Of a stretch of 64,000 nucleotides of DNA, positions 4,148 through 63,466 are shown in pieces. This DNA is from Minwuia sp. Its GTDB lineage: Bacteria > Pseudomonadota > Alphaproteobacteria > Minwuiales > Minwuiaceae. Below the pieces are notes generated by a model, which saw only the letters and a list, made by a program, of their open reading frames with translations, had not been told where the DNA came from and did not search any database. A program made the position numbers and the translations under genes. Position 1 is the stretch's first letter. Each line of letters opens with the position of its first letter. The DNA is taken from the NCBI GenBank assembly GCA_029213165.1, contig JARGNO010000003.1, forward strand, positions 31,307 through 95,306. The letters are read 5' to 3'.

Positions 4148-4606
4148 ATGCTGAGTGTGGAAACCCCGCAGGACCTGAAGAACCACGTCGGTGCCGATTG
4201 CGGCGTGTCGGACTGGGTCACGGTTGATCAGGAAATGATCGACAAGTTTGCAGACGCCACAGGCGATCACCAGTGGATTCACGTTGATGTGGAGCGCGCC
4301 AGGAAGGAAATGCCGAACGGCCAGACCATCGCGCATGGCTTCCTGACCCTGTCGCTGGTGCCGCTGCTGTCCGCGCAGACCCTGACGGTGGAAAAGCGCA
4401 GTCGCGGACTGAACTATGGTTCCAACAAGGTGCGTTTCACCAACATGGTGCCCGCCGGCAGCCGTGTTCGCCTGCATCAGAAGATCAAGGAAGTGAACGA
4501 CGTTTCCGGCAATGGTGTTCAGGTGATTTCCGAGATGTCGATGGAGATCGAGGGCCAGGAACGACCGGCCATGGTGGCGGAGTTCATCAGCCTTTCATTC
4601 GCCTGA
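4148..4606 (+). CDS. MaoC family (R)-specific enoyl-CoA hydratase
   Basis: 152 residues from the ATG at 4148, preceded by GGGAGGATCGAGA; the ORF track starts earlier at 4064, but those residues are not family-like. It is a single hotdog domain. The hydratase motif is intact: Asp and His in ATGDHQWIHVD near residue 33, then NGQTIAHGFLTLSL. It hydrates an enoyl-CoA to the (R)-3-hydroxyacyl-CoA, the opposite stereochemistry to the crotonase at 1060. Having both kinds in one cluster suggests two separate hydration steps or epimerisation through the enoyl-CoA. Confidence 0.85.
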   Translation: MLSVETPQDLKNHVGADCGVSDWVTVDQEMIDKFADATGDHQWIHVDVERARKEMPNGQTIAHGFLTLSLVPLLSAQTLTVEKRSRGLNYGSNKVRFTNMVPAGSRVRLHQKIKEVNDVSGNGVQVISEMSMEIEGQERPAMVAEFISLSFA

Positions 4607-4619
4607 CCGGGATCCCGCG

Positions 4620-5966
4620 ATGACCGGCACTCAGGTAACTGCAACCCTGGCGGCGCAGGCCGCCGGGCTGCACCTCGACGATATCGACGATGACGCGCGC
4701 GCGGTTGCCCGGCAGTGCCTGCTTGACTGGTTCGCCGTGACCATCGCCGGGGCGGATGAACCCTGTGTGGCGCTGTTGACCGCGGAGGCCGCCGATCAGG
4801 GCGGCAATCCACAGGCAACGCTGGTCGGACATGGCCTGCGCCTGTCCACCCGTCAGGCCGCGCTTGTCAACGGCACGGCGAGTCATGCCCATGACTATGA
4901 CGACGTGAACATGACCCTTTCCGGTCATGCAACCGTCGCCGTGGCGGGCGGACTGCTCGCACTGGCCGAAAAGCTGGATGCCAGCGGCGCTGACGTGCTG
5001 ACGGCCTTCGTGGCGGGGTACGAGACCGCCTGCCGTGTCGGCGCGCTGGTGATGCCGGGTCACTATGCGATGGGTTTCCATTCCACGGCCACGGCTGGCA
5101 CTTTCGGTGCCGCCGCGGCCTGCGGGCGGTTGCTTGGCCTCGACGCAGACCAGATGGCGCGGGCCTTCGGCATCGCCGGCACCATGGCCGCCGGGCTGAA
5201 GAGCCAGTTCGGCACCGACTGCAAACCCTTCCATGCGGGCCGGGCGACGGAGGCCGGTCTGATGGCCGCAACCATGGCCAAACGCGGCTTTACCTCGCGT
5301 GGCGACATTCTGGATTGCGAGCAGGGCTTTGCCGCGACCCATTCGAAGCACTTCAATCCGGAGGCGGCAATTGGTGACGCGCCGGGCGGCGGTTTCCATG
5401 TCCGCAACAACCTGTTCAAGTATCATGCGGCCTGTTACCTGACCCACGCCGCCATCGAGAGTGGGCGGCAGATCCGGGCCGAACACGCCCCTGCCCCGGA
5501 AGAGGTTGCCGCCGTCTCCATCCAGGTGGAGAAGGGCGCGGACCGCGTCTGCAACATCGCGGAGCCCGTGACGGGGCTGGAGACCAAGTTCTCGCTGCGC
5601 ATGACCACGGCCTTCGCGCTTGCAGGCATCGACACGGCGGGCATGACAAGTTACACGGCGGCGAATGCCACCGACCCGCGCCTGACAGCGCTTCGGGACC
5701 GCGTGCAGGTCGATCTGGCAAGCGGAATCTCGGCGACCTTCTCCGACGTGACGGTGACCCTGAAGGACGGCACCCGGCTGCAGGCGAGCCACGACAGCGG
5801 CATCCCCGCGGCCGATGTCGGCGTCCAGGGCCAGCGCATCGGGGCCAAGTTCGATGCCCTGGCCAAGCCGGTGATCGGCGACAACCGGTCCGGCGCGCTT
5901 CGCGCGGCGCTCGAGAATATCGAGACCGCCCCTTCCATCGCCGAGATCATGCAGATCGCCGCCTGA
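4620..5966 (+). CDS. MmgE/PrpD family protein
   Basis: 448 residues, a full-length member of the family that includes 2-methylcitrate dehydratase, cis-aconitate decarboxylase and iminodisuccinate epimerase. Family segments include NGTASHAHDYDD and GFHSTATAGTFGAAAA in the helical domain, and KPFHAGRATEAGLMAA. The exact reaction cannot be assigned from sequence. It starts 13 bp after the MaoC gene and is part of the same run. With a CoA synthetase and an HMG-lyase-type enzyme beside it, dehydration or isomerisation of a small tri- or dicarboxylic acid is a reasonable guess. Confidence 0.8.
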   Translation: MTGTQVTATLAAQAAGLHLDDIDDDARAVARQCLLDWFAVTIAGADEPCVALLTAEAADQGGNPQATLVGHGLRLSTRQAALVNGTASHAHDYDDVNMTLSGHATVAVAGGLLALAEKLDASGADVLTAFVAGYETACRVGALVMPGHYAMGFHSTATAGTFGAAAACGRLLGLDADQMARAFGIAGTMAAGLKSQFGTDCKPFHAGRATEAGLMAATMAKRGFTSRGDILDCEQGFAATHSKHFNPEAAIGDAPGGGFHVRNNLFKYHAACYLTHAAIESGRQIRAEHAPAPEEVAAVSIQVEKGADRVCNIAEPVTGLETKFSLRMTTAFALAGIDTAGMTSYTAANATDPRLTALRDRVQVDLASGISATFSDVTVTLKDGTRLQASHDSGIPAADVGVQGQRIGAKFDALAKPVIGDNRSGALRAALENIETAPSIAEIMQIAA

Positions 5967-48941: not shown

Positions 48942-50372
48942 TCATACGGCCTTTGCCACAGGGTCCACGCGGCGCAGTTCCCTGCATGTGTCCTGCCGCA
49001 GGACCTCCCCCATCAGGACCAGGGAAGGCTGTTCTTGATCAAGTTCACCGATCGAAGTCGCGGCCTCAGCCAGTGTCGAATGCACCCAGGCCTCATCGGG
49101 TCGGGAAATGCTGACCCCGACTGATACGGGTGTCGAGGCACAGGCGCCCCGCGCCATGGCCTCCGCACTGAAGGCCGCCAGGCGGCCACGCCCCATGTAG
49201 AGTGCGATGGTCGTCCGCTCGGAAGCGACCGCCTGCCAGTCGATCTCCGCCGGGCCGTCTCCTCTCCCATGACCTGAAACATAAAGAAGCTGCCGACCGA
49301 AATGCCGGTCGGTCAGTGTCTTGCCGATGCTGGCCGCAGCCGCCGAGGCGGTGGTGATGCCAGGCACGATGCTGACATCAATCCCGGCGTCTCGCAGTGC
49401 CCGCACCTCTTCCCCGCCACGGCTGAAGATTGCAGGGTCTCCCGCCTTCAGCCGGACAACGTGCTTCCCCTCCCCCGCGAACCGGATCATCAGACGATTG
49501 ATCTCTTCCTGCTTGCAGGATGGACGCCCGCCGCGCTTGCCAACCGGCATCCGCTGCGCCTCCCGCCGGGCCAGTTCCAGGATATCGTCGGAAACCAGTG
49601 CGTCGAACAGCACCACATCCGCATCCTGCAGCGCCCGGATCGCCTTCACAGTCAGCAGATCCGGATCACCCGGACCGGCGCCGACCAGCGTGACCCGCCC
49701 GCTCTCTCCCCCGAAGACCGGCATGGCATCGTTCGCGACTGCCGGCAGTTCCGCGCCGGACATTGCGGTGTCGGCAAAGCGGGTCCACCAGGCGCGGCGC
49801 AGGCTGGGCAGTGGCAGCGCAGTCCTGACCGTTGCACGCATCGCCCGCGCCCACATACCCCATGCGCCAAGGTTGCGCGGCAGCAGACGCTCCACCTTCT
49901 GCCGGATCGCCTGCCCCAGAACCGGGGCGGTGCCATCGGTGGAGATACCAACCACGACAGGCGAACGATTGACGATGGATCCGAACTGCACGGTGCAGAA
50001 CGCCGGGCGGTCGATCTGGTTGATCGGCACACCCCGTGCGACCGCCGCATCAAACAGCGCCCTTGCCTGCGTCTCCGCCTCGACATCCGCGACGACCAGC
50101 GCGAACTCCGACAGCCGGGCAAGGACGGCATCGAATTCCGACCGCAGCAGCGCATGCTGCATGATCAACGCCCTGACTTCCGCGACCGGGCGTTCGGCAA
50201 CCAGCGTCGGCACCGCTCCGGTAGCCAGCAGCAGTTCCAGCTTCCACGCCACGGCTTCGGAGCCACCGACAACCAGAACGGGGCGGTCCTGCAACCGATG
50301 GAACAAGGGCAGCACAGCGATCGGCGCGATGCGCTCCACCGCTTTCTCAGACAGCTTCCGCGACCTGCGCAT
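48942..50372 (-). CDS. cysG: Sirohaem synthase (multifunctional)
   Basis: 476 residues. The N-terminal half is precorrin-2 dehydrogenase/ferrochelatase (PVLVVGGSEAVAWKLELLLATGA). The C-terminal half is uroporphyrinogen-III C-methyltransferase (VTLVGAGPGDPDLLTVKAIRALQDADVVLFD, then VVRLKAGDPAIFSRGGEE and VPGITTASAAAA). It makes sirohaem for the nitrite reductase encoded three genes upstream in the same operon. A start at the ATG at 50372 overlaps nasA by 26 bp; a GTG at 50339, after the nasA stop, would give a more usual N-terminus. It ends three bases from the carbamoyltransferase. Confidence 0.9.
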   Translation of the reverse strand: MRRSRKLSEKAVERIAPIAVLPLFHRLQDRPVLVVGGSEAVAWKLELLLATGAVPTLVAERPVAEVRALIMQHALLRSEFDAVLARLSEFALVVADVEAETQARALFDAAVARGVPINQIDRPAFCTVQFGSIVNRSPVVVGISTDGTAPVLGQAIRQKVERLLPRNLGAWGMWARAMRATVRTALPLPSLRRAWWTRFADTAMSGAELPAVANDAMPVFGGESGRVTLVGAGPGDPDLLTVKAIRALQDADVVLFDALVSDDILELARREAQRMPVGKRGGRPSCKQEEINRLMIRFAGEGKHVVRLKAGDPAIFSRGGEEVRALRDAGIDVSIVPGITTASAAAASIGKTLTDRHFGRQLLYVSGHGRGDGPAEIDWQAVASERTTIALYMGRGRLAAFSAEAMARGACASTPVSVGVSISRPDEAWVHSTLAEAATSIGELDQEQPSLVLMGEVLRQDTCRELRRVDPVAKAV

Positions 50373-53019
50373 TGCTCAGCAGCCTCCCGATCTCGCTCTG
50401 GCACGACCCGCATCCGGTTCCCGCGCCCGTGACCTTACCAACAGCCTGGACACTGCAGGCACCACCTGCGACTGCCGCGCTGATGGCGCGGGTGCCCACG
50501 TTGTTGCAGGCACAGACCATGACCCCGGGCCCCGCGTTCGCGTCTGCCGGGCGACCGGCCAGCAGACGGGCACGTTGCGCAACCTCGTCGAATGTCTCGC
50601 CGAGACAGGAGAGCAGCCATTCACGCTCGACAGCGACCGGGGCAGGGGCGGCGAGGAACGCGCCGATCAACCGGTTCCGTCGGAAGGCGGCCAGCCGATA
50701 GAGGCCGAGGTGGTTGTCCAGAAACTGCAACCGCTCCAGCCCGTCCCCGGATGCAAGGCCAAGGAAGCGGTCGGTCAGCCGGGATTCCGGAACATCGCCG
50801 CGCCCTGCGCATTCGAATCTGTAGCCAGCCCCTGACCGAACAGCGGCCCAATAGTCGGTGCCTGCAAGGTCGGGGCGTTCGAGACTGGCACCGAAACCGT
50901 ACCAGTCGGCCTCGTGGCGTTGCACCGACACGCGGGACGACTTCAGGGCGGGCTGACCGGACACGGGATCGACGACACCTCGCACCAGCGCATCGACTCT
51001 GGCCGTCACAGCCGTCTGGCCCGTCCAGTGCATCGGGCTGAAGACCGTGCCTGGCTGCTGCGCGTCCGTGATCAGTGCCCGCGCCACCAGCCGTCCGCAG
51101 TCATTCGAGAGCCGGACGAGATCTGCTGCCCTGATGCCTGTACGCTTCGCATCAGCCGGATGCAGCGCCACATACGGCTCAGCCAGATGCTGGGAGAGCC
51201 GGGCAGACCGGCCGGTGCGTGTCATCGTGTGCCATTGGTCCCGCACCCGCCCCGTGTTCAGGACGAAAGTCGCGGAATCTGCCCCAACCGGCGCAGGTGA
51301 AAGGGTCGGGACGAACCGTGCCTTCCGGTCAGGCGTAAAGAACCGGCCATCCGAGAGGATCTGTCCATCTTGGCGCGACGACTGGTTCGGGACCGGCCAT
51401 TGCACCGGCGACAGACGGTCAAACCCGCCGCGCCCCAGCCCGACAAGTCCGCCGATATCGAAATCACGCTGCCCGACATTGTCCAGGGCAGAGAGCCGGG
51501 CATGTTCGTCGAAGATCGCGGCAGGTCCGGAGTAATCGAAGGCCTGCCGGAACCCCATTGCCTTGGCGACATCACAGATGATGCGCCAGTCCGGGCGGGC
51601 TGCGCCGGGCAGCGGGCGAAAGCCGCGCTGCCGACTGATACGGCGTTCGGAGTTGGTGACGGTTCCGTCCTTCTCGCTCCAGCTCGCGGCAGGCATCAGG
51701 ACATCGGCAACTTCGACGGTATCGGTGCGCCGCTCGACATCGGACACGACGACCAGCGGACAGGCCTTCAGCGCGCGGCGCACCCGATCAGCATCCGGCA
51801 TGGTGACCGCCGGATTGGTGGCCATGATCCAGACAGCCCTGATCCGGCCGGCCTCGATCGCGTCGAACAGGTCAACCGCCTTCAGTCCGGCCCGCGTGGC
51901 CATGGCAGGGGCCTGCCAGAACCGCTGTACCCGCGCCCGGTCCTCCGGATTCTCGATCTCCATGTGTGCGGCAAGTTGGTTGGCAAGCCCGCCGACCTCC
52001 CGCCCCCCCATCGCGTTCGGTTGGCCGGTGATGGAGAATGGCCCCATGCCGGGACGCCCGACACGTCCGGTAAGCAGATGGCAATTGATGATGGCATTCA
52101 CCCGATCCGTGCCGTCTGCCGCCTGGTTCACTCCCTGACTGAAGACAGTCACGGTCTTGCGGTGCGCTGCAAACATTTCCCGGAACGCCGCAATCTGCGC
52201 CCGGCTGAGACCCGTCAGCGCTTCTGTCTCAGCCTGCTGCGTCACCTCGGCCGTGCGCAGGGCGTCTTCCAGCCCATTGGTATGCTGCGCCACGAAGGCC
52301 GCATCGGCATGTCCCTGCTCCGCCAGCCAGACGAGCAGATTGCTGAACAGCGCAACGTCGCCGCCGCTGCGGATCGGCAGGTGCAGATCTGCAAGTTCCG
52401 CCGTCGGTGTCCGTCGCGGGTCGATGACAACGATCTTCATTCCGGGTCGCGCATTCCGCGCCGCCAGCAGCCGCTGGAACAGCACCGGATGACACCAGGC
52501 CAGGTTGGAGCCAACCAGAACGACCAGATCCGCCTGCTCCAGATCCCCATAGGAAACCGGCACGACGTCGGCGCCGAAAGCCCGCTTGTGCCCAGCCACT
52601 GCGGAGGCCATGCAGAGACGGGAATTGGTGTCGATATTGCCCGAGCCGATGAAGCCCTTCATCAGCTTGTTGGCGACGTAGTAGTCCTCCGTCAGCAACT
52701 GGCCGGAAACATAGAAGGCGACCGAGTCGGGGCCATGTTCCGCGATCGTGCGACTGAATCCGTCCGCGACCCTTGCGATGGCTTCATCCCATGTTGCGGG
52801 CTGCCCATCGATCTCCGGTGCCAGCAGTCGCCCATCCAGCCCCAGGGTCTCCCCGAGCGCCGCCCCCTTCGAGCACAGACGACCGAAATTCGCCGGGTGA
52901 TCCGGATCCCCCTTTATCTCCACCGAGCCATCGGGTCTGGCGGTGGCCAGCACGCCACAGCCCACCCCGCAATAGGGGCAGGTGGTGCGCACGATGGGGG
53001 ACGCGGCGCTGTCAGGCAT
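50347..53019 (-). CDS. nasA: Assimilatory nitrate reductase catalytic subunit
   Basis: 890 residues from the ATG at 53019, which overlaps the nirD stop by 8 bp. A [4Fe-4S] site is near the N-terminus (TCPYCGVGCGV, then RLCSKGAAL). The molybdopterin guanine dinucleotide domains follow (FYVSGQLLTEDYYVANKLMKGF; GSNLAWCHPVLFQRLL). A BFD-like [2Fe-2S] domain ends the protein (VMVCACNNVGT, TGCGSCQSEIG). There is no signal peptide, so it reduces nitrate to nitrite in the cytosol. The extra C-terminal cluster suggests electrons arrive through an iron-sulfur partner. No separate diaphorase is encoded here. Confidence 0.94.
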   Translation of the reverse strand: MPDSAASPIVRTTCPYCGVGCGVLATARPDGSVEIKGDPDHPANFGRLCSKGAALGETLGLDGRLLAPEIDGQPATWDEAIARVADGFSRTIAEHGPDSVAFYVSGQLLTEDYYVANKLMKGFIGSGNIDTNSRLCMASAVAGHKRAFGADVVPVSYGDLEQADLVVLVGSNLAWCHPVLFQRLLAARNARPGMKIVVIDPRRTPTAELADLHLPIRSGGDVALFSNLLVWLAEQGHADAAFVAQHTNGLEDALRTAEVTQQAETEALTGLSRAQIAAFREMFAAHRKTVTVFSQGVNQAADGTDRVNAIINCHLLTGRVGRPGMGPFSITGQPNAMGGREVGGLANQLAAHMEIENPEDRARVQRFWQAPAMATRAGLKAVDLFDAIEAGRIRAVWIMATNPAVTMPDADRVRRALKACPLVVVSDVERRTDTVEVADVLMPAASWSEKDGTVTNSERRISRQRGFRPLPGAARPDWRIICDVAKAMGFRQAFDYSGPAAIFDEHARLSALDNVGQRDFDIGGLVGLGRGGFDRLSPVQWPVPNQSSRQDGQILSDGRFFTPDRKARFVPTLSPAPVGADSATFVLNTGRVRDQWHTMTRTGRSARLSQHLAEPYVALHPADAKRTGIRAADLVRLSNDCGRLVARALITDAQQPGTVFSPMHWTGQTAVTARVDALVRGVVDPVSGQPALKSSRVSVQRHEADWYGFGASLERPDLAGTDYWAAVRSGAGYRFECAGRGDVPESRLTDRFLGLASGDGLERLQFLDNHLGLYRLAAFRRNRLIGAFLAAPAPVAVEREWLLSCLGETFDEVAQRARLLAGRPADANAGPGVMVCACNNVGTRAISAAVAGGACSVQAVGKVTGAGTGCGSCQSEIGRLLSNAQVAEAV

Positions 53020-53368
53020 CCGCGCCCACCGCGCCTGCCCGCAGGCAATCGCCACTCAGCAGGATACGGCCATCCTCGACGCGGGTGGGGTAGGTTGTGA
53101 CCCGACCGCTGTCCGCCCCCTGCGCCTCCCCCGACTCCAGGCTGATGACCCAGTTGTGCAACGGACAGGTGACGGACGCCCCATGCACGATGCCCTGGCT
53201 CAGCGGTCCCTGCTTGTGCGGGCAACGGTCCTCCAGCGCGAAGACCTGGTCATCGACCGTACGGAATACCGCAATGCAGCCCTGGGGCAGGCGCAATACG
53301 CGCCCGCCACGGCGCGGGACATCATCAAGTGCCGCAATGTCCAGCCAGCGTTCTGTGGTGTGCTGCAT
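53012..53368 (-). CDS. nirD: Nitrite reductase small subunit, Rieske type
   Basis: 118 residues, a single Rieske domain. Both cluster-ligand pairs are present, CPH in LEDRCPHKQGPLSQG and CPLH in VTCPLHNWVISLESG, so it probably keeps a [2Fe-2S] cluster, unlike the Cys/His-less enterobacterial NirD. It partners NirB in reducing nitrite to ammonium. The start and the nirB stop overlap by one base, and its stop overlaps nasA, so expression is tightly coupled. Confidence 0.92.
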   Translation of the reverse strand: MQHTTERWLDIAALDDVPRRGGRVLRLPQGCIAVFRTVDDQVFALEDRCPHKQGPLSQGIVHGASVTCPLHNWVISLESGEAQGADSGRVTTYPTRVEDGRILLSGDCLRAGAVGADA

Positions 53369-55812
53369 CAGGCCACGGCCTCCAGATCAGGGGTTGCGAG
53401 GGAAGTGAATTCGTGGGCATCGCGACCGGCGGCCCGTTCCGACCAGGGATCGGTCTGGGCGAACTGCTGGGCAAAATTGAAGCGGTCGACCAGCGCCTGG
53501 CGATTCTCGGCATCGCCGACGATGGCCTGTTGCACATGCTCCATGCCGACGCGCGCCAGCCACTTGTGCATCCGGTCGAGATAATGGGCTTCTTCCCGGT
53601 AGAGCTGCAGCAGGGCGACGCAGTATTCCATCACCTGCTCTTCCGTCTCGACCTTGCAGAGCGGGACGGTTTCCTTGACTTCCATGCCTGCGGCCCCGGC
53701 GAACAGCAGTTCGTAGCCACTGTCCACACAGATCACGCCGAAGTCCTTGATGGTCGCCTCCGAGCAGTTTCGCGGACAGCCGGAGACGCCCATCTTCACC
53801 TTGTGCGGTGTCCATGCTCCCCAGAGGAAGCGTTCCATCCGCACCCCCAGCGAGACCGAGGCCTGGGTACCAAAACGGCACCATTCACTGCCGACACAGG
53901 TCTTCACCGTGCGCAGCGCCTTGCCATAGGCATGACCGGAGACCATGCCAGCGGCGTTCAGGTCGGACCAGACCGCCGGCAGGTCATCCTTCTTCACGCC
54001 CAGCAGGTCGATCCGCTGCCCGCCCGTGACCTTCACGGTCGGGATGGCGAACTTGTCGGCCACATTGGCGATGGTGCGCAATTCGTCCGGCGTGGTGATG
54101 CCCCCCCACATGCGTGGCACGACCGAGTAGGTGCCATCCTTCTGGATGTTGGCGTGGACCCTTTCGTTGATGAAGCGGGACTGCTGGTCATCGACATACT
54201 CACCGGGCCAGGTGGCCAGCAGGTAGTAGTTCAGCGCCGGGCGGCACTTGGCGCAGCCACAGCTCGTCTGCCATTGCAGTTCCTGCATCACCGCCGGAAT
54301 GGACTTCAGCGCCTTTGCGATGATCAGGCGACGGACCTCCCCGTGGCCCAGATCCGTACAGCCGCACATGGACTGGACTGCAGGGCGCGCGTAGGACTCG
54401 CCCAGGCTGAGTTCCAGCAATTGTTCCACCAGCCCCGTGCAACTGCCGCAGGACGACGATGCCTTCGTGGTCGCCCGCACCCCGTCCAGATCGCTCTGAC
54501 CTGCGGCGATGGCGTCGACGATGACACTCTTGCAGATGCCGTTGCAGCCACAGATCTCGGCGTCATCCGCCAAGGCTGCAACGGCCGCCATAGGGTCCAG
54601 CGGGCCCGCTCCCGCAAAACCCTGTCCGAAGATCAGGGTCTCGCGCATGTCGGAGATATCGGTGCCGTCCTTCATCAACTGGAAGAACCAGGGGCCATCC
54701 GCCGTGTCGCCATAGAGAACCGCACCAATGATGCGATTGTCGCGAAGCACCAGCCGCTTGTAGATCGCGTGACTGGCGTCCCGCAGCACGATCTCCTCCC
54801 GGTCATCGCCCTCCGCGAAGTCCCCGGCGGAATAGAGATCGACGCCTGTCACCTTCAGCTTCGTCGCCGTGATGGAGCCTTCGTAGGTCAGGCTGTCATC
54901 CCCCGCCAGTCCAGCCCCCACTGACTTCGCCATCTCGTAGAGCGGCGCGACCAGGCCGTAGCAGGTGGCCCGGTGCTCGACGCATTCGCCCACGGCATAG
55001 ATCGCCGGATCACTTGTCTGCATCAGGTCGTTGACCAGAACCCCGCGATTGACCTCCAGCCCGGCATCCCTGGCCAAGGCGATGCTCGGCTTGATGCCGA
55101 CGGCCATGACCACGATGTCCGCCGGGATTTCCGTTCTATCGTCCAGCCGCACGGCCTCGACCTTGTCATCACCCACGACCGCGTGGGTGTTGGCGCGGGT
55201 AATGACCCTGATCCCGCGATCCTCGATCGCGCGTTGCAGCAGGTATCCGGCACTCTGGTCCAGTTGCCGCTCCATCAGCGTCGGCATCAGGTGCAGCACG
55301 GTGACTTCCATGCCCTGCGCCTTCAGCCCCGCCGCCGCCTCCAGCCCCAGCAGGCCGCCGCCGATGACAACCGCGCTGCCGCCCTTCCGTGCCTGGGCCA
55401 GCATGGCTTCGACGTCGTCCAGATCGCGGTAGCTCAACACGCCCGGCAAATCGTGGCCCGGGACCGGAATGATGAAGGGCAGTGATCCCGTGGCGATGAT
55501 CAGCCGGTCGTATTCGGCAACCGTACCGGCGCGGGAAATCACCCGCTGGTCGGCCCGGTTGATGGCAATGACTTCCTCCCCCCGGATCAGGTTGACCCGG
55601 TTCCGGACGTACCAGTCATCGTCATGGATCAGGATATCCTCATAGGCCTTCTCACCCGAAAGCACCGGAGAAAGCATGATCCGGTTGTAATTGACCCGGG
55701 GTTCGGCGTTGAAGACCGTGACCTCATAGCGGTCCGGCTCCCTGCGGAACAGCTCCTCCAGCGCACGGCCAGCGGCCATGCCGTTGCCGATGACGACAAG
55801 CTTCTCAGTCAT
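53368..55812 (-). CDS. nirB: NAD(P)H nitrite reductase large subunit
   Basis: 814 residues from the ATG at 55812; the ORF track adds six. FAD and NAD domains come first (KLVVIGNGMAAGRALEELF; AVVIGGGLLGLEAAAGLKAQG). Next is a BFD-like [2Fe-2S] segment (CGCNGICKSVIVDAI, SCGSCTGLVEQL). The sirohaem/[4Fe-4S] domain is at the C-terminus with TCVGSEWCRFG and GVSGCPRNCSEA, giving the four Cys ligands. It reduces nitrite to ammonium with six electrons from NAD(P)H in the cytosol. Sirohaem comes from cysG in the same operon. Confidence 0.95.
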   Translation of the reverse strand: MTEKLVVIGNGMAAGRALEELFRREPDRYEVTVFNAEPRVNYNRIMLSPVLSGEKAYEDILIHDDDWYVRNRVNLIRGEEVIAINRADQRVISRAGTVAEYDRLIIATGSLPFIIPVPGHDLPGVLSYRDLDDVEAMLAQARKGGSAVVIGGGLLGLEAAAGLKAQGMEVTVLHLMPTLMERQLDQSAGYLLQRAIEDRGIRVITRANTHAVVGDDKVEAVRLDDRTEIPADIVVMAVGIKPSIALARDAGLEVNRGVLVNDLMQTSDPAIYAVGECVEHRATCYGLVAPLYEMAKSVGAGLAGDDSLTYEGSITATKLKVTGVDLYSAGDFAEGDDREEIVLRDASHAIYKRLVLRDNRIIGAVLYGDTADGPWFFQLMKDGTDISDMRETLIFGQGFAGAGPLDPMAAVAALADDAEICGCNGICKSVIVDAIAAGQSDLDGVRATTKASSSCGSCTGLVEQLLELSLGESYARPAVQSMCGCTDLGHGEVRRLIIAKALKSIPAVMQELQWQTSCGCAKCRPALNYYLLATWPGEYVDDQQSRFINERVHANIQKDGTYSVVPRMWGGITTPDELRTIANVADKFAIPTVKVTGGQRIDLLGVKKDDLPAVWSDLNAAGMVSGHAYGKALRTVKTCVGSEWCRFGTQASVSLGVRMERFLWGAWTPHKVKMGVSGCPRNCSEATIKDFGVICVDSGYELLFAGAAGMEVKETVPLCKVETEEQVMEYCVALLQLYREEAHYLDRMHKWLARVGMEHVQQAIVGDAENRQALVDRFNFAQQFAQTDPWSERAAGRDAHEFTSLATPDLEAVA

Positions 55813-55859
55813 GGCTGCAAACTCCTGCAATCGTGCGGTGCGACTTCTGCGACCGCATT

Positions 55860-56870
55860 TCAGAAATACCAGGCGACAACGTCGCTCAGGCTGTCGGTTC
55901 CATGGATCGGCAGCGCCACCAGTGACCGGAACCCGGCGCGGGCAGCGGCCCGTTCAAGAATGTCGGTGCTGGCGGCAAGGTCGGCGACGACCTCCGGCAC
56001 GCCTGTGGCGGCAACCCGCGTCAGCACGCAGTCGCCATCCCGCACCAGCAGCTCCACGTCGTGCCCGCTCGGCGTGCCTTCCAGTTCGCAGACCCCGTCC
56101 CGGAACTTCATCCACCGCCGGTCAAGTACCGACCAGATCTCGAAACGCCGCGCGATGGGCGTACCCCGTGCAGACAACAGGGCCAGCACAGTGGTGCCGG
56201 TGGTGTGGCTGGCCACGGGAAAAGCCAGCCCGAACGTCAGACCTGCCTTTTCCGCACTCTCGGAGCGGATGAAACGGCGGCTGTTGCCCAGGTCATGCAT
56301 CAGTTGCGGCCGACCGCTGGCCCAGACCTGGCCGGGGAGACCCATGCCCTTCGGGAAACGCGTCCGCTTCGAGATCCACTCGAAATGCGCGGCGGTTCCG
56401 AAATAGCCGTCCACCAGACCCATGGTGTCGCCCGACTCATCACCGCCGTGCCAGAGTTCGATGGCACCCACATGCTCCGCATCGTCACCGCAGAGAAAGA
56501 CGACAACGCCCATCAGCTCGTCGCGATGAGAGAAGACCGGGATGGCCAGACCAACCGTCAGCCCCTCCCGCTCTGCCGCTTCGGTGCGCCTGAAGTAACT
56601 GCCACGAAATCCCTTCAGCATGACCGGCGCACGCGACTGCCAGGCTCTGCCCGGCAAGCCTTCACCCATGCCGAAGCTTTCCTGATCGCTGACCTGCGCG
56701 AAGCCGGTCATCGATCCATGATAGGCAGAGGCGAGAGTGAGCCGATTGCTGGACGGATCCAGCGTCCACACTTCAGTGGCGCGCACGAATGCCCTGGTGT
56801 CCCCTGCCTGAACAGGTGCCGCCTCGGTCACGGCTGATCCCATCAGACCTTTCAGCATTCCGGTGTTCAT
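55860..56870 (-). CDS. GAF-domain protein within the nitrate operon
   Basis: 336 residues with what look like two GAF domains: one around [24 protein letters not shown] to [14 protein letters not shown], the second around [29 protein letters not shown] to [14 protein letters not shown]. No kinase, HTH or cyclase domain is present, so it is a stand-alone sensor or binding protein. It overlaps the ATPase gene by 4 bp (ATGA) and sits between transporter and nirB, which ties it to nitrate use. A role in sensing nitrate, NO or redox, or in allosteric control of transport, is inferred only from position. Confidence 0.75.
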
Positions 56871-58600
56871 GCTGCCTCATCCCGCTTGGAAACGGTGTCT
56901 GCCGGCGCCTCCTCAGGCTTCGGCTCCGGCGTTGCGCCGTGCTCGTATTCCTCCAGGAAGGACAGCAACTGCTCGCGGTAGAGGTAATAGTCCGGGTGCT
57001 CCAGCAGGGCCTTGCGGGTGCGGGGGCGCGGCAGGTCCACCTCCATGATCCGGCCAATCGTGGCGTTCGGCCCGTTGGTCATCATCACCACGCGGTCTGC
57101 GAGCAGGATCGCCTCATCCACGTCATGCGTGACGCAGATCGCCGTGACCTGGGTCCGCTTCCAGACATCCATCAGGACTTCCTGCAGTTCCCAGCGTGTC
57201 AGGCTGTCCAGCATCCCGAAGGGTTCATCCAGCAGCAGCAACTTCGGCGAAAGGGCGAAGGCACGCGCGATCCCGACGCGCTGTTTCATGCCGTTGGAGA
57301 GATCGGCTGCCAGCCGGTCCATGGAATCCCCCAGACCGACACGGGCAAGGTAGTACTCGACGATGTCCGACCGCTCCGCAGCCGTGGCATTGGGGAACAC
57401 CCTGTCCACGCCGATGGAGACATTCTCCCGCGCCGTCATCCAGGGCATCAGGCTTGGTGCCTGAAACACCACCGCGCGCTCCGGCCCCGCACCCGAGATC
57501 TCGCGACCATCCAGCACCACACTGCCCGACGAGATCTCGTTCAGACCCGCGGTCATGGACAGAACCGTTGACTTGCCACAACCCGAATGCCCGATCAGGG
57601 AGATGAACTCCCCCTTGCGCATCTTCAGTTCGACGCCATCGACGACGGTCAGTGGCCCCTTCGGCGTCGGATAGACCTTCTTCAGGTTGATGAATTCGAG
57701 GAAGCGGTCCTCGCGCGGGCTTTCGGCAGCCTTCAGATAGGCTTCGGGCGGCAGGTCCTCGCCGCCCTGCTGCGTGATCGGGACGACATTGGGCAGGACA
57801 AGCGTGTCCTCGACATTCGCGCCACGTTCCAGGCCCACCCGCATCAGGTACTGCGTGATGTCAGCACGCAGACGCTTGAAACCGGCGTCATGGTTCATCG
57901 CCGTCCGCTCCCTGGGGCGCGGCAGGTCCACCCTGAACTCCGGTCCGAGTGTCGCGTTGGGGCCCGGGTTGAGCGGAATGATCCGGTCGGCGAGCAGGAT
58001 CGCCTCATCCACGTCATTGGTGATCAGCAGAACGGTCTTGCGGTCCTGCTGCCAGATGCGGGTGATCTCGTCCTGCAGATTGGCGCGGGTCAGCGCGTCC
58101 AGCGCCGAGAGCGGTTCGTCGAGCAGCAGGATTTCAGGACTCATGGCCAGGGCGCGCGCCACGGCAACCCGCTGGCGCATGCCACCGGAAAGCTCCGCAG
58201 GCTTGCGGTCGACGGCGTGCGACAGGCCCACCATGTCGATGTAGCGGGCAACCCGCGCCGCGCGTTCCGCCCTGCTCTCCGACGAGAAGACGGAGTCGAC
58301 GGCCAGCGCCACATTGCCCTCCACCGTCAGCCAGGGCATCAGCGAATAGCTCTGGAAGACGACGCCACGCTCCGGATCCGGACCCTTCACGCGCTTGCCC
58401 TTCAGCAGGATCTCGCCCGCATCCGGTTCGATCAGCCCGGCAATGGCGCTGATCAGTGTCGTCTTGCCGGAGCCGGAGAAGCCGACGATCGCAATGAACT
58501 CGCCCTCCTCAACCGCCAGATCGATGCCGTCCAGAACGATGGAGCGATCCACCCCGACGCCATACCCCTTAGTCAGTCCATTGAGTTCAAGAAATGCCAT
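56867..58600 (-). CDS. nrtCD: Nitrate ABC transporter ATPase, two fused ABC domains
   Basis: 577 residues carrying two complete ABC cassettes. Domain 1 has [18 protein letters not shown] and [11 protein letters not shown]; domain 2 (from about residue 310) has [17 protein letters not shown] and [11 protein letters not shown]. The switch His is kept in domain 2 (CVTHDVDEA) but is Asn in domain 1 (LITNDVDEA). One composite ATP site therefore looks degenerate and the other canonical. It energises nitrate/nitrite uptake with NrtB and NrtA. Cyanobacteria use two separate proteins, NrtC and NrtD; here they are one chain. It follows nrtB by 12 bp. Confidence 0.9.
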
Positions 58601-58612
58601 GATCCGCCCCCC

Positions 58613-59698
58613 TCACCGCGTTGCCGAGTGGGTGAACATGGTCTGCAGCGCCAGCATCACGCGATCCAGCAGGAAGCCGATGATGCCGATGGTGAAGACC
58701 GCAACGAGGATCTTGGCGAGGGACGACGAGGAACCGTTCTGGAACTCGTCCCAGACGAACTTGCCCAGCCCCGGGTTCTGCGCCAGCATTTCCGCCGCAA
58801 TCAGCACCATCCAGCCAACACCGAGAGACAGGCGCAGTCCGGTGAAGATCAGCGGCATGGCAGAGGGCAGGACCAGTTTCACGATCTGCTTCGACCAGGA
58901 CAGTTGCAGCACCCGACCGACATTCATCAGGTCCTTGTCGATGGAGGCCACGCCATAGGCCGTATTGATCAGGGTCGGCCAGAGCGAACAGAGCATCACG
59001 GTTATCGCGGAGACCACGAAGGACTTCGGAAACAAGTCGCTGTTGCCGGCGTAGACCGCCGAGACGACCATCGTGACCAGCGGCAGCCAGGCCAGCGGCG
59101 AGACCGGCTTGAAGATCTGGATCAGCGGATTGACCCCGGCATTCACGGCCCGCGAAAGCCCGCAGACGATACCCAGCGGCACCGCCACGACGGTTGCCAG
59201 CAGAAAGCCGAAGCCGACCGTGACCAGGCTGGTCCATATCTGGTCGAGATAGGTCGGTGCGCCGGTGTAGTCGCGCCATTTGATGCGGTCCTGCTTGCCC
59301 TGCTCGGCAAGCTTCGCGTTCCGCTTCTCCTGTCGCTCCATGAACGCTGCTTCCTTGCCGCGTTCGCGCACATGGTCGGCGTAGAGGTTCTCCACCTGCT
59401 CCCAGACGCCCGCCGGACCAGGTATGGCCCCAAGCGAGGTATTCACCAGCGGCGCCGTCTGCGCCCAGACAAACAGGAACAGCAGGATACCCAGCACTGG
59501 CATGCCGAGACCGCGCCCCAGTTCCTTCATCTGATGACCGACCGGATCTCCGGCGGCGATCTTCAGCAAGGGCGTGACCCAGCCAAGTGCCAGCATGTTG
59601 AGGTAGGTGTCTGCCCGGCCAATCCAGGTGAACATCCGCTCAGTGCGGCGTTGCCTCGCTGCTTCGGCAGTGCTGTCAATATCGCTTGCGACGCTCAT
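58613..59698 (-). CDS. nrtB: Nitrate ABC transporter permease
   Basis: 361 residues from the ATG at 59698; the ORF track adds 32 residues that are not family-like. About six membrane spans, with the permease EAA-like loop near SLWPTLINTAYGVASIDKDLMNVGRVL. It is longer than cyanobacterial NrtB (about 275) because of an N-terminal extension and a charged helical insert (RERGKEAAFMERQEKRNAKLA) between the first spans. The insert should lie outside the membrane. It works with NrtA and the fused ATPase. Confidence 0.9.
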   Translation of the reverse strand: MSVASDIDSTAEAARQRRTERMFTWIGRADTYLNMLALGWVTPLLKIAAGDPVGHQMKELGRGLGMPVLGILLFLFVWAQTAPLVNTSLGAIPGPAGVWEQVENLYADHVRERGKEAAFMERQEKRNAKLAEQGKQDRIKWRDYTGAPTYLDQIWTSLVTVGFGFLLATVVAVPLGIVCGLSRAVNAGVNPLIQIFKPVSPLAWLPLVTMVVSAVYAGNSDLFPKSFVVSAITVMLCSLWPTLINTAYGVASIDKDLMNVGRVLQLSWSKQIVKLVLPSAMPLIFTGLRLSLGVGWMVLIAAEMLAQNPGLGKFVWDEFQNGSSSSLAKILVAVFTIGIIGFLLDRVMLALQTMFTHSATR

Positions 59699-59803: not shown

Positions 59804-61207
59804 TCAGCCGTCAACCACGCTGCTGCCTTCGACCTTCTCGGAACCCTTCAGGCCGATCGGGAACTGCTCCAGATAGGCGTTGGGCTTGCGGCCATCGAAG
59901 GTGATGCCATCGATGAACTCGGTCTGGGCAGGCTTGAAACCATCGGTATCCCAGGGGAAGTCCGCCTTGTCAGCCAGACCTTCCTCCACCAGCAACTTCG
60001 CGGCGGAGAGATAGATGTCCGGGCGGTAGACCTTGGCCGCGACGTCCTTGTACCAGGCATCCGACTTGCCATCGGTGATCTGGCCCCAGCGGCGCATCTG
60101 GCTGAGATACCAGATCGCATCGGAGTAGTAGGGGTAGGTCGCGAAGTAGCGGAAGAAGACGTTGAAGTCGGGGACGTCGCGCTTGTCACCCTTCTCGTAC
60201 TCGAAGGTTCCGGTCATCGAGTTGGCGATGACCTCCCGGTCGGCCCCGACATATTCGGAACGGGACAGGATATCGACCGCTTCAGGCCGGTTGGCATTGT
60301 TGTTCTCGTCCAGCCACATGGCGGCGCGGATCAGTGCCTTGGTTACCGCCACGGCCGTGTTGGGATACTTCTCAGCGAATTCGGCGGTGATCCCGAAGAC
60401 CTTTTCGGGATTGTCCTTCCAGATCTCGTAGTCGGTGATGACCGGAACACCGATCCCCTTGAACACGGCCTGCTGGTTCCACGGCTCGCCCACGCAGTAG
60501 CCGTGGATGGTGCCGGCCTCCAGCGTTGCCGGCATCTGCGGCGGCGGCGTCACGGACAGCAGCACATCCGCCTGGATCTGCCCCGTGATGTTCTCACCGG
60601 AATAATAGCCGGGATGCAGGCCACCAGCGGCCAGCCAGTAGCGCAATTCATAGTTGTGGGTCGAGACGGGGAAGACCATGCCCATCTTGAAGGCCTTGCC
60701 ATCATTGCGGAAACGGTCGACGACGGGCTTCAGGTAGTCGGCCTTGATCGGATGCACGGGCCTGCCGTCCGCCTGCAAGGGAATGTTGGGCTTCATCTCC
60801 GCCCAGACCTCGTTCGACACGGTGATGCCGTTGCCGTTCAGATCCATGGAGAACGGAGTGATGATATGCGCCTCGGTACCGAAACCGATGGTCGCGGCCA
60901 GCGGCTGACCGGCCAGCATGTGGGCGCCATCCAGTTCGCCGGTGATCACCCGATCCAGCAGAACCTTCCAGTTCGCCTGCGGCTCCAGCGAGACGAAGAG
61001 TCCCTCATCCTCGAAGTAACCCTTCTCGTAGGCGATGGCGAGCGGCGCCATGTCGGTCAGCTTGATGAAACCGAAGGTGAGTTCGTCCTTCTCGACATCC
61101 AGCATCTCGGCCTGCGAGATACCGGGTGCGCCAATGCCTGCGATGGCGAAGGCGGCCAGTGCCACGAATGCACCATCTCTGATGCGACTGAGCAGTGAAT
61201 GGGTCAC
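59804..61207 (-). CDS. nrtA: Nitrate-binding periplasmic protein of ABC transporter
   Basis: 467 residues from the GTG at 61207, preceded by a GAGG-type site. A Sec signal peptide is visible ([22 protein letters not shown]). The mature protein is a NrtA/CmpA-type solute-binding protein with [42 protein letters not shown] and [14 protein letters not shown]. The last two segments also appear in cytosolic NasS. It captures nitrate or nitrite and delivers it to NrtB. The ORF track extends the frame upstream through the leader, which is not coding. Confidence 0.92.
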
Positions 61208-61275: not shown

Positions 61276-61333
61276 AAAAAAAGCCGCCCACCTTTTCCGG
61301 CCCCGCTGGATGCGGTTCCTTCAAGGTGGCGGC
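61276..61333 (-). terminator. Intrinsic terminator in the nrtA leader
   Basis: On the - strand GCCGCCACCTT pairs with AAGGTGGGCGGC (one bulge) and is followed at once by seven U. It lies about 70 bases before the nrtA start and after the two hexaloop hairpins. This is the attenuator expected for NasT antitermination. Confidence 0.85.
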
Positions 61334-61344
61334 CTTGCCACGGA

Positions 61345-61362
61345 CGACCCGTCAATGGATCG
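61345..61362 (-). promoter_or_regulatory. ANTAR target hairpin P2
   Basis: CGATCC and GGGTCG close a six-base loop ATTGAC (one G-U pair), with A at loop position 1 and G at position 4. It lies 11 bases after P1 and 11 bases before the terminator arm. Confidence 0.8.
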
Positions 61363-61373
61363 CTATGTTTCGG

Positions 61374-61391
61374 GACACCGTCGTTGGCGTC
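61374..61391 (-). promoter_or_regulatory. ANTAR target hairpin P1
   Basis: GACGCC and GGTGTC close the loop AACGAC, again six bases with A1 and G4. Paired hexaloops of this kind are the known target of dimeric ANTAR antiterminators such as EutV, NasR and NasT. Confidence 0.8.
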
Positions 61392-61405: not shown

Positions 61406-61421
61406 TTCAAGCCCTGTGCCA
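61406..61421 (-). promoter_or_regulatory. Sigma54 promoter (-24/-12) of the nitrate operon
   Basis: TGGCACAGGGCTTGAA on the - strand matches TGGCACRNNNNTTGCW with one mismatch (A for C in the -12 box) and correct GG-N10-G spacing. The predicted start, near 61395, places P1 at the very 5' end of the RNA. Confidence 0.65.
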
Positions 61422-61542: not shown

Positions 61543-62736
61543 TCAGCGAACAGTGGGTCGAAGCTCACCGAGATAGCGGCGGACATTGTCCGGATCGAAG
61601 TAGTGGCCATCCATCAACGGGGCATGATCACGCCCATTCACACCGGCCGGAAACCCGGCAGCACCGGCCAGGAGGTCGGCGCGATAGACTTCGCCAACCA
61701 TCTGCACGGCCTGTTCGCTGTAATCGACCTGTCCCCACCGCATCATCTGGCTCAACACCCAGGTTGCCGCATCCGCATCGGGCAGGTTCATCCGCCCGCC
61801 ACCGAAGCGCAGGAAATCCGGGGCCTGCCGGATGGTCCCGTCCGGGTGGATCACAAGGTTGCCGGTCAGCGCCCGGCGCAGGATGCGCACGGGCGCGCCG
61901 ACATGCGCCTCATCCGCAAGCAGGCTCACCAGATCATCGCGATTTGCCGGGTCCTGACACCATTCCGCGCCCGCATGAAGTGCCCGCAGCAATCGCCGCA
62001 GCAGATCCGGATGACGTTCCGTCCAGACCTTGCGGGCACCAAGCACCTTCTCCGGCGCATCGGGCCAGATGTCGTGTTTCAGCGCCACGATCGCGGCCAG
62101 TCCCGCATCGACCGCCAGACTTCCCCAGGGTTCGCCGACACAGAAACCATCGACCTGCCCGGCGCGCAGGCTGTCCACCATCATCGACGGCGGAATGACG
62201 ACAATGCGCACATCCGTATCCGGGTCGATGCCGGAAGCCGCAAGCCAGTAGCGCAACTCGTAATTGTGGCTGGAGAACGGGAAGACCATGGCCAGCACCA
62301 GCGGCGCCTCGCCAGCCGCCGCGCGCTGTCTGATCAGGTCGCGCAGGGCCAGGCCGGCAGCCAGCGGGCCGTCCCGCCAGCCCTGCCCTGTCCCGTCGAG
62401 TCCTGCAAAAAGGCCACGACTGAGCGCGATGACATTGCCACCCCGTCCGAATGCAAAACTCGCGACCGTCGGCACCTTCAGATGATTGATGCCCAGGGAC
62501 GCGGCAAGCGGCATCCCCGCCAGCATCTGCGCAACATCCAGGTGACCGACGTTGATGCGGTCGCGGATGCTGGCCCAGGACGGTTGTCGCAGCAGGCGAA
62601 GATCGATGGCCTCCGCCGCCGCCATGCCGCGCCGCGCCGCGACGATCAGCGGTGCCGCGTCCACCAGCGGCAGGAAGCCCGCACGCACGACTTCGTGGCC
62701 ATCGCGGCCCCTATCCATGTTCATGTCGATTTCCAC
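61543..62736 (-). CDS. nasS: Nitrate/nitrite sensor NasS
   Basis: 397 residues, a solute-binding-protein fold without a signal peptide, so cytosolic. It shares with NrtA the segments [20 protein letters not shown] and GFCVGEPWGSLAVDA, which line the anion site. In known NasS-NasT systems NasS holds NasT inactive and releases it on binding nitrate or nitrite. It lies 142 bp downstream of nasT and directly upstream of the controlled leader. Starts at codons 4 or 6 are also possible. Confidence 0.9.
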   Translation of the reverse strand: MEIDMNMDRGRDGHEVVRAGFLPLVDAAPLIVAARRGMAAAEAIDLRLLRQPSWASIRDRINVGHLDVAQMLAGMPLAASLGINHLKVPTVASFAFGRGGNVIALSRGLFAGLDGTGQGWRDGPLAAGLALRDLIRQRAAAGEAPLVLAMVFPFSSHNYELRYWLAASGIDPDTDVRIVVIPPSMMVDSLRAGQVDGFCVGEPWGSLAVDAGLAAIVALKHDIWPDAPEKVLGARKVWTERHPDLLRRLLRALHAGAEWCQDPANRDDLVSLLADEAHVGAPVRILRRALTGNLVIHPDGTIRQAPDFLRFGGGRMNLPDADAATWVLSQMMRWGQVDYSEQAVQMVGEVYRADLLAGAAGFPAGVNGRDHAPLMDGHYFDPDNVRRYLGELRPTVR

Positions 62737-62878
62737 GCACGGAGTTCATCGTTCACATCTCCCGCACAGGGCCACGACCGACGTGGTCCGCCGCCCAGGT
62801 AGGTTTCCGGTCGCGCTCCGTTGCGCAATCTGTCCTCCGGTCTCGCCATTGAGACCCATCTTTCCGCCACCGGCCCGG

Positions 62879-63466
62879 TCAGGCAAGCAACTCGGCCGCT
62901 GTCACCACGCTTCGGGCAATATCGGCAATCTTCTTCTTCTCGTTCATCGCGGTGCGGCGCAGCAGGCCATAGGCGGCCGGTTCATCGACCCCCTTGCTGC
63001 GCATCAGGATGCCTTTCGCACGCTCGATGATCTTGCGGTCCTCCAGTGCGCCCCGCGTCTCCTCCAGTTCCGCACGCAGGCGGGAGAAGGCGTTGAAGCG
63101 GCTGATCGCCATGTCGACGATGGACCGGACACGCGACTGCACCAGACCATCGACGATGTAGGCGGACACGCCCGCCTCAATGGCCTGGTCGATCATGGCC
63201 CGGTCGGAATGGTCCACGAACATGGCAATCGGGCGACGCACGTCACGGCTGACCTGGAACATCTGTTCCAGCACGTCACGGCTGTGATCCTCCAGATCGA
63301 TCACGATCACATCGGGGTCCATGGCGAAGATCCGGCGCTGCAGATCGAAGGTATCCGTGATCAGGTGCGCATCCACCTCCCCCGCGCCCGTCAGCCCGTC
63401 CACCAGAATGGCCGCACGGACGGGATTGCTGTCGATTACCGCGACTTTGAGAGCTTCTTTTTGCAT
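62879..63466 (-). CDS. nasT: ANTAR-domain antitermination regulator NasT
   Basis: 195 residues from the ATG at 63466; the ORF track adds 42 residues of non-coding sequence. A receiver-like domain (LKVAVIDSNPVRAAILVDGL; DVIVIDLEDHSRD) is followed by a coiled linker and a C-terminal ANTAR domain (DRKIIERAKGILMRSKGVDEPAAYGLLRRTAMN). It binds paired hexaloop hairpins in nascent RNA and prevents terminator folding. Its likely target is the nrtA leader at 61276-61391. Together with nasS it forms the sensor pair. Confidence 0.92.
   Translation of the reverse strand: MQKEALKVAVIDSNPVRAAILVDGLTGAGEVDAHLITDTFDLQRRIFAMDPDVIVIDLEDHSRDVLEQMFQVSRDVRRPIAMFVDHSDRAMIDQAIEAGVSAYIVDGLVQSRVRSIVDMAISRFNAFSRLRAELEETRGALEDRKIIERAKGILMRSKGVDEPAAYGLLRRTAMNEKKKIADIARSVVTAAELLA

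Follow-up and report, generated by a model that had tools for sequence, protein, structure and literature searches.

A putative NasT antitermination leader with three hexaloop hairpins upstream of nrtA in Minwuia sp.

In Paracoccus denitrificans, NasS holds the RNA-binding protein NasT, and nitrate releases NasT from NasS (PMC3795266). The leader RNA of nasA is bound by NasT, and its hairpin HI is required in vivo (PMC3795266, PMC5424462). In the model of ANTAR antitermination, the second hairpin (P2) is located at the 5' base of the terminator and this overlapping hairpin constitutes the antiterminator (PMC3369931, PMC3369936, PMC8934654). We here compare these systems with a nitrate-assimilation locus of Minwuia sp., which is encoded on a 64,000-nt stretch of contig JARGNO010000003.1 (assembly GCA_029213165.1). 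This whole stretch is called the window in the following, and the coordinates of its features are given in Table 1.

The locus resembles the Paracoccus NasS-NasT/nasA system (PMC3795266, PMC5424462) in that nasTS is found directly upstream and a hairpin leader separates nasS from the structural genes. It differs in that its operon begins with nrtABCD. Furthermore, two hairpins (HI and HII) are named for Paracoccus, while the Minwuia leader has three hexaloops with A at position 1 and G at position 4 (A1/G4), one of them embedded in the terminator. The Paracoccus leader is gel-shifted by NasT and one of its hairpins is required in vivo. With Enterococcus eut/EutV (PMC3369931, PMC8934654), the locus shares A1/G4 hexaloops, a P2 inside the terminator's 5' arm and a REC-ANTAR protein, while eut leaders show two instead of three hexaloops. 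The Klebsiella NasR/nasF leader (PMC3369936) likewise serves nitrate assimilation and shows a terminator overlapping P2 as well as A1/G4 loops. Unlike in Minwuia, NasR is a one-component NIT-ANTAR sensor and two hairpins are present.

On the minus strand, the gene order is nasT, nasS, a 335-nt gap, nrtA, nrtB, nrtCD, a GAF-domain gene, nirB, nasA and cysG. That is, nasT and nasS are located just upstream of the leader, as noted in the first-pass annotation. The nasS product is about 40-50% identical to genes at the equivalent position in other loci and shows no signal peptide (by inspection); it is a cytoplasmic NrtA-like sensor encoded next to nasT, in line with a NasS-NasT system. The nrtA product carries a hydrophobic, signal-like segment at its N-terminus. 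Residues 820-898 of the nitrate reductase (50347-53055, minus strand) match the 390-470 region of NirB and perhaps form a fused [2Fe-2S] domain. Among named relatives, a Minwuia thermotolerans MAG is the closest, and its NasT is 95% identical. Within the genus the locus is patchy, with nasT in only 3 of 7 genomes (G000 and G001-G006).

NasT is the only ANTAR gene of the genome (profile PF03861). When aligned with EutV, the RNA-contact residues of which are named in PMC8934654, it keeps the contacting Tyr, Arg, Met and Asn and shows conservative changes at three basic positions, as read from the alignment. Its receiver domain gives a weak match below the cut-off, and the switch Lys is replaced (YIVDGL for YLVKPL). 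Because this receiver lysine is lost, the NasT sequence fits a control via NasS and not via phosphorylation, i.e., NasT would be released by NasS while EutV is phosphorylated.

Table 1. Features of the nitrate-assimilation locus in the window.
Feature	Position	Strand	Remarks
nasT	62879..63466	-	pseudo-receiver + ANTAR RNA-binding protein; PF03861 E=4.5e-21; EutV/NasR/AmiR matches
nasT-nasS element	62811..62856	-	second dual A1/G4 hexaloop element, loops AATGGC + AACGGA; nasT-nasS gap; no U-run terminator
nasS	61543..62736	-	nitrate-binding sensor; PF13379; follows nasT; start codon uncertain
sigma54-like -24/-12 promoter	61406..61421	-	TGGCACAGGGCTTGAA; sequence, putative function
Hairpin Pa	61374..61391	-	gacgcc-AACGAC-ggtgtc; loop AACGAC; extra upstream hexaloop; hairpin 1 of the first-pass annotation
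Hairpin Pb	61344..61363	-	gcgatcc-ATTGAC-gggtcgt; loop ATTGAC; equivalent of ANTAR P1 (recruitment hairpin); hairpin 2 of the first-pass annotation
Hairpin Pc	61326..61341	-	gtggc-AAGGCC-gccac; loop AAGGCC; equivalent of ANTAR P2 (antiterminator); excludes terminator
Intrinsic terminator	61276..61336	-	with U7; 5' arm overlaps Pc
nrtA	59804..61207	-	periplasmic nitrate-binding protein; PF13379; first controlled gene in the proposed model
nrtB	58613..59698	-	permease; TIGR01183 E=1.2e-47, under that model's cut-off
nrtCD	56867..58600	-	fused two-ATPase subunit; TIGR01184
nirB	53368..55830	-	assimilatory nitrite reductase; TIGR02374 928 bits
nasA/nasC	50347..53055	-	assimilatory nitrate reductase; NF047855 437 bits, under that model's cut-off
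cysG	48942..50372	-	siroheme synthase; NF007922 463 bits

The first-pass annotation described two hexaloop hairpins, here called Pa and Pb, followed by a terminator, as a complete NasT (ANTAR) leader. Both A1/G4 hexaloops are present at the site, with every element on the minus strand. The U7 terminator was placed about 70 bases before nrtA and ends 68 nt before its start at 61207. The two hairpins were said to be 11 bases apart, which holds only when Pb is counted with 6 bp; the Pa-Pb linker is otherwise 10 nt long. Both hairpins and the terminator are part of the minimum free energy fold of the minus strand, where the 141-nt region shows a z-score of -3.46 and none of 200 shuffles is equally stable. 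The plus strand shows no notable fold (z = -1.46), and a reading on this strand was therefore dropped. None of 5000 dinucleotide shuffles of the nasS-nrtA gap yielded a pair of hairpins as good as this one. A sequence search in Rfam yielded no relevant family match for E-values up to 5. When the genome was searched for further NasT leaders, one strong match (92 bits) was obtained and all others had E >= 0.7; weaker relatives may escape this search, as its covariance model was built from three close sequences.

The nrtA leader contains a third A1/G4 hexaloop hairpin, Pc, in addition to Pa and Pb. Pc sits between Pb and the terminator and takes up the terminator's 5' arm, such that both structures are mutually exclusive; its own 5' arm (GTGGC) is outside the terminator. 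Length-stepped folding yields Pa, followed by Pa+Pb and, from 70 nt, Pa+Pb+Pc. Pc is displaced from about 106-118 nt, i.e., only once the 3' arm of the terminator has been made. The energy of the full fold is -54.9 kcal/mol vs. -43.8 kcal/mol when Pc is enforced. The Pb-Pc linker (2 nt with a 7-bp Pb, 4 nt with a 5-bp Pb) is shorter than in eut leaders, for which a range of 5-12 nt is reported (PMC3369931); in the EutV system, a 3-nt linker abolished induction, though among the 44 leaders described below a loop spacing of 16-25 nt is usual. Because the published position of P2 matches Pc, Pb by analogy corresponds to P1 and Pc to P2, while Pa would be an extra upstream hexaloop. The leader was thus not complete with Pa and Pb as P1 and P2, since neither of them is at the 5' base of the terminator.

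Hexaloop frequencies were taken from 30 leaders whose selection ignored hairpins and relied only on a sigma54-like TGGCR element followed by a U-run. They contain 47 A1/G4 hexaloop hairpins, while 1.7 are expected from dinucleotide shuffles (28-fold excess). For the other three hexaloop classes, counts of 4, 3 and 15 compare with expected values of 4.4, 3.7 and 15.5. In most relatives, the TGGCR element is found about 43-69 nt upstream of Pb. A broader set comprises 44 leaders with Pb and Pc at a loop spacing of 16-25 nt; as it was selected by pairing, including that of Pc with the terminator, and by G4, these features (the overlap in part) are present by construction in this set, while the Pc-terminator overlap in the window is independent thereof. 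Since MAFFT placed the Pa loops incorrectly when aligning all leaders, hairpins were anchored by their loop signature instead. Among 42 distinct leaders, the Pa slot shows a hexaloop hairpin in 23 and none in 19. The A1/G4 signature is observed for 17 of the 23 compared to 7.6% expected (p = 6e-15, with leaders not fully independent), and leaders with an A1/G4 Pa span many alphaproteobacterial genera. Pa is therefore recurrent but not universal and, judging from the 19 leaders that lack its hexaloop, is not essential to the leader family.

It had also been suggested that NasT prefers loops ending in GAC, as both Pa and Pb do. This does not extend to the relatives, where only 10/44 Pb loops and 1/44 Pc loops show this end and the Minwuia species G003 has AACGGA/ATTGCA instead. 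Pc loops favour AACGCC, while the Pc loop of G003 begins with G and not A. Three further loci (L171, L172 and also L169) show an A1/G4 hexaloop cluster directly 3' of nasT, before the first NrtA/NasS-like gene; in L171 it consists of three hexaloops and a U10.

For the covariation of Pc, hairpins were chosen by loop signature only. The third pair is complementary in all 22 distinct leaders (14.1 expected for shuffled partners) and is found as A-U, G-C and U-A, while no significant covariation was observed for the fourth and fifth pairs in these leaders. Because the 5' arm of Pc is outside the terminator, the third-pair signal supports Pc itself. Pairs 4-6 of Pb and 2-4 of Pa covary above shuffles. 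As the sequences are related, the p-values for all three stems overstate independence. Across the three Minwuia species, Pa and Pb each show one pair that is altered on both sides. That is, the two stems whose covariation in homologues was at issue in the first-pass annotation both covary. The proposed type of leader is thereby retained, while its completeness is not, given the overlooked Pc.

We thus consider the nrtA leader a nitrate-responsive, NasT-controlled transcription antitermination leader, with a probability of roughly 0.88. It is of a known kind, in a three-hexaloop variant. The three hairpins, the Pc/terminator overlap, the covariation and the NasT partner gene are shown by sequence and comparison, while we infer NasT binding, its order and an extra recruiting role of Pa. 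Transcription would probably start at the sigma54-type promoter just upstream of the leader. When nitrate is absent, NasS would hold NasT and the terminator would form, such that transcription halts 68 nt before nrtA. When nitrate is present, free NasT would bind the A1/G4 hexaloops of Pa and Pb as these leave RNA polymerase and next stabilise Pc, which would capture the terminator's 5' arm. With the terminator blocked, polymerase would continue into nrtABCD-nirB-nasA-cysG.

The first-pass annotation took Pa and Pb alone as the ANTAR pair, such that NasT bound there would block termination without a terminator-overlapping hairpin. Their linker of 10-11 nt is inside the eut range of 5-12 nt (PMC3369931) and both loops are perfect A1/G4. 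We nevertheless regard this as improbable, since relatives possess Pc, whose stem covaries, the Pa hexaloop is missing in 19/42 leaders and nothing in Pa-Pb would disturb the terminator. Alternatively, Pa might merely be a stabilising 5' hairpin that is not bound by NasT, which leaves Pb+Pc as an ordinary dual hairpin. Several rhizobial leaders appear (by eye) to have a tetraloop or 5-nt-loop hairpin in the Pa slot. The strong A1/G4 bias of the hexaloops in this slot (17/23), even if the leaders are not fully independent, speaks against a mere stabiliser, which we hold to be unlikely though worth keeping in mind. Finally, terminators after two-gene operons are common, and the U-run hairpin could be the mere end of the nasTS transcript, with nrtA served by its own downstream promoter and the hairpins incidental. 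This is hardly credible given the conserved promoter-like element upstream of the terminator, the 28-fold A1/G4 excess and the exclusion of the terminator by Pc.

In the open literature, to which the search was largely confined, we found no published three-hexaloop ANTAR leader; the EutX small RNA has an extra single hexaloop (PMC8934654). For the antitermination reading, 44 NasT leaders are now defined, in which the 5' arm of the antiterminator is mutable apart from the terminator. The recurring third hexaloop provides a test of the recruitment-then-handover model published for ANTAR antitermination.

The most novel lead of our analysis is the second dual-hexaloop element, which is located between nasT and nasS. 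Its hairpins, GGTCTC-AATGGC-GAGACC and TTGCGC-AACGGA-GCGCGA, are 10 nt apart. When the gap was shuffled 20000 times, a pair as strong was obtained once; no U-run is found at the element. It is common to three Minwuia species (the window, L002 at about 4610-4656 and L103 at about 923-970). In the more distant species the surrounding gap has diverged, yet both loops are A1/G4 and the loop spacing is 28 in both. There, both arms of the first stem are altered, with one mismatch. Of the remaining loci with a long gap between nasT and nasS, only Chthonobacter (L040, about 4600-4640) shows a comparable pair without terminator, i.e., two A1/G4 hairpins with loop spacing 26 and no U-run. Dual hexaloops without terminator are also known from actinobacterial ANTAR RNAs near start codons (PMC8164766). 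Many of these overlap the ribosome site, while the nasT-nasS element ends about 45 nt upstream.

NasT may also bind this element and thereby exert feedback on its own inhibitor NasS within the nasTS message; no intrinsic terminator would be involved. In combination with the three hexaloops before nrtA, the operon would then contain an ANTAR RNA circuit of two sites, a tentative proposal to which we give less than an even chance. The element might act by titrating NasT, by affecting how the transcript is processed or through Rho-dependent control. If bound, it would be a new kind of NasT target, i.e., the gene of NasT's own antagonist. A switching of the nasS ribosome site was rejected, as forcing the hairpins on or off left the predicted accessibility unchanged. 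In both the window (about 62710-62750, minus strand) and L002, the nasS start is overlapped by a 12-codon ORF (MNSVRGNRHEHG), which a ribosome-site-like GGGAG stretch precedes. In L103, the ATG that matches the start of this ORF is in frame with nasS. These arrangements might reflect translational coupling or a shifted start.
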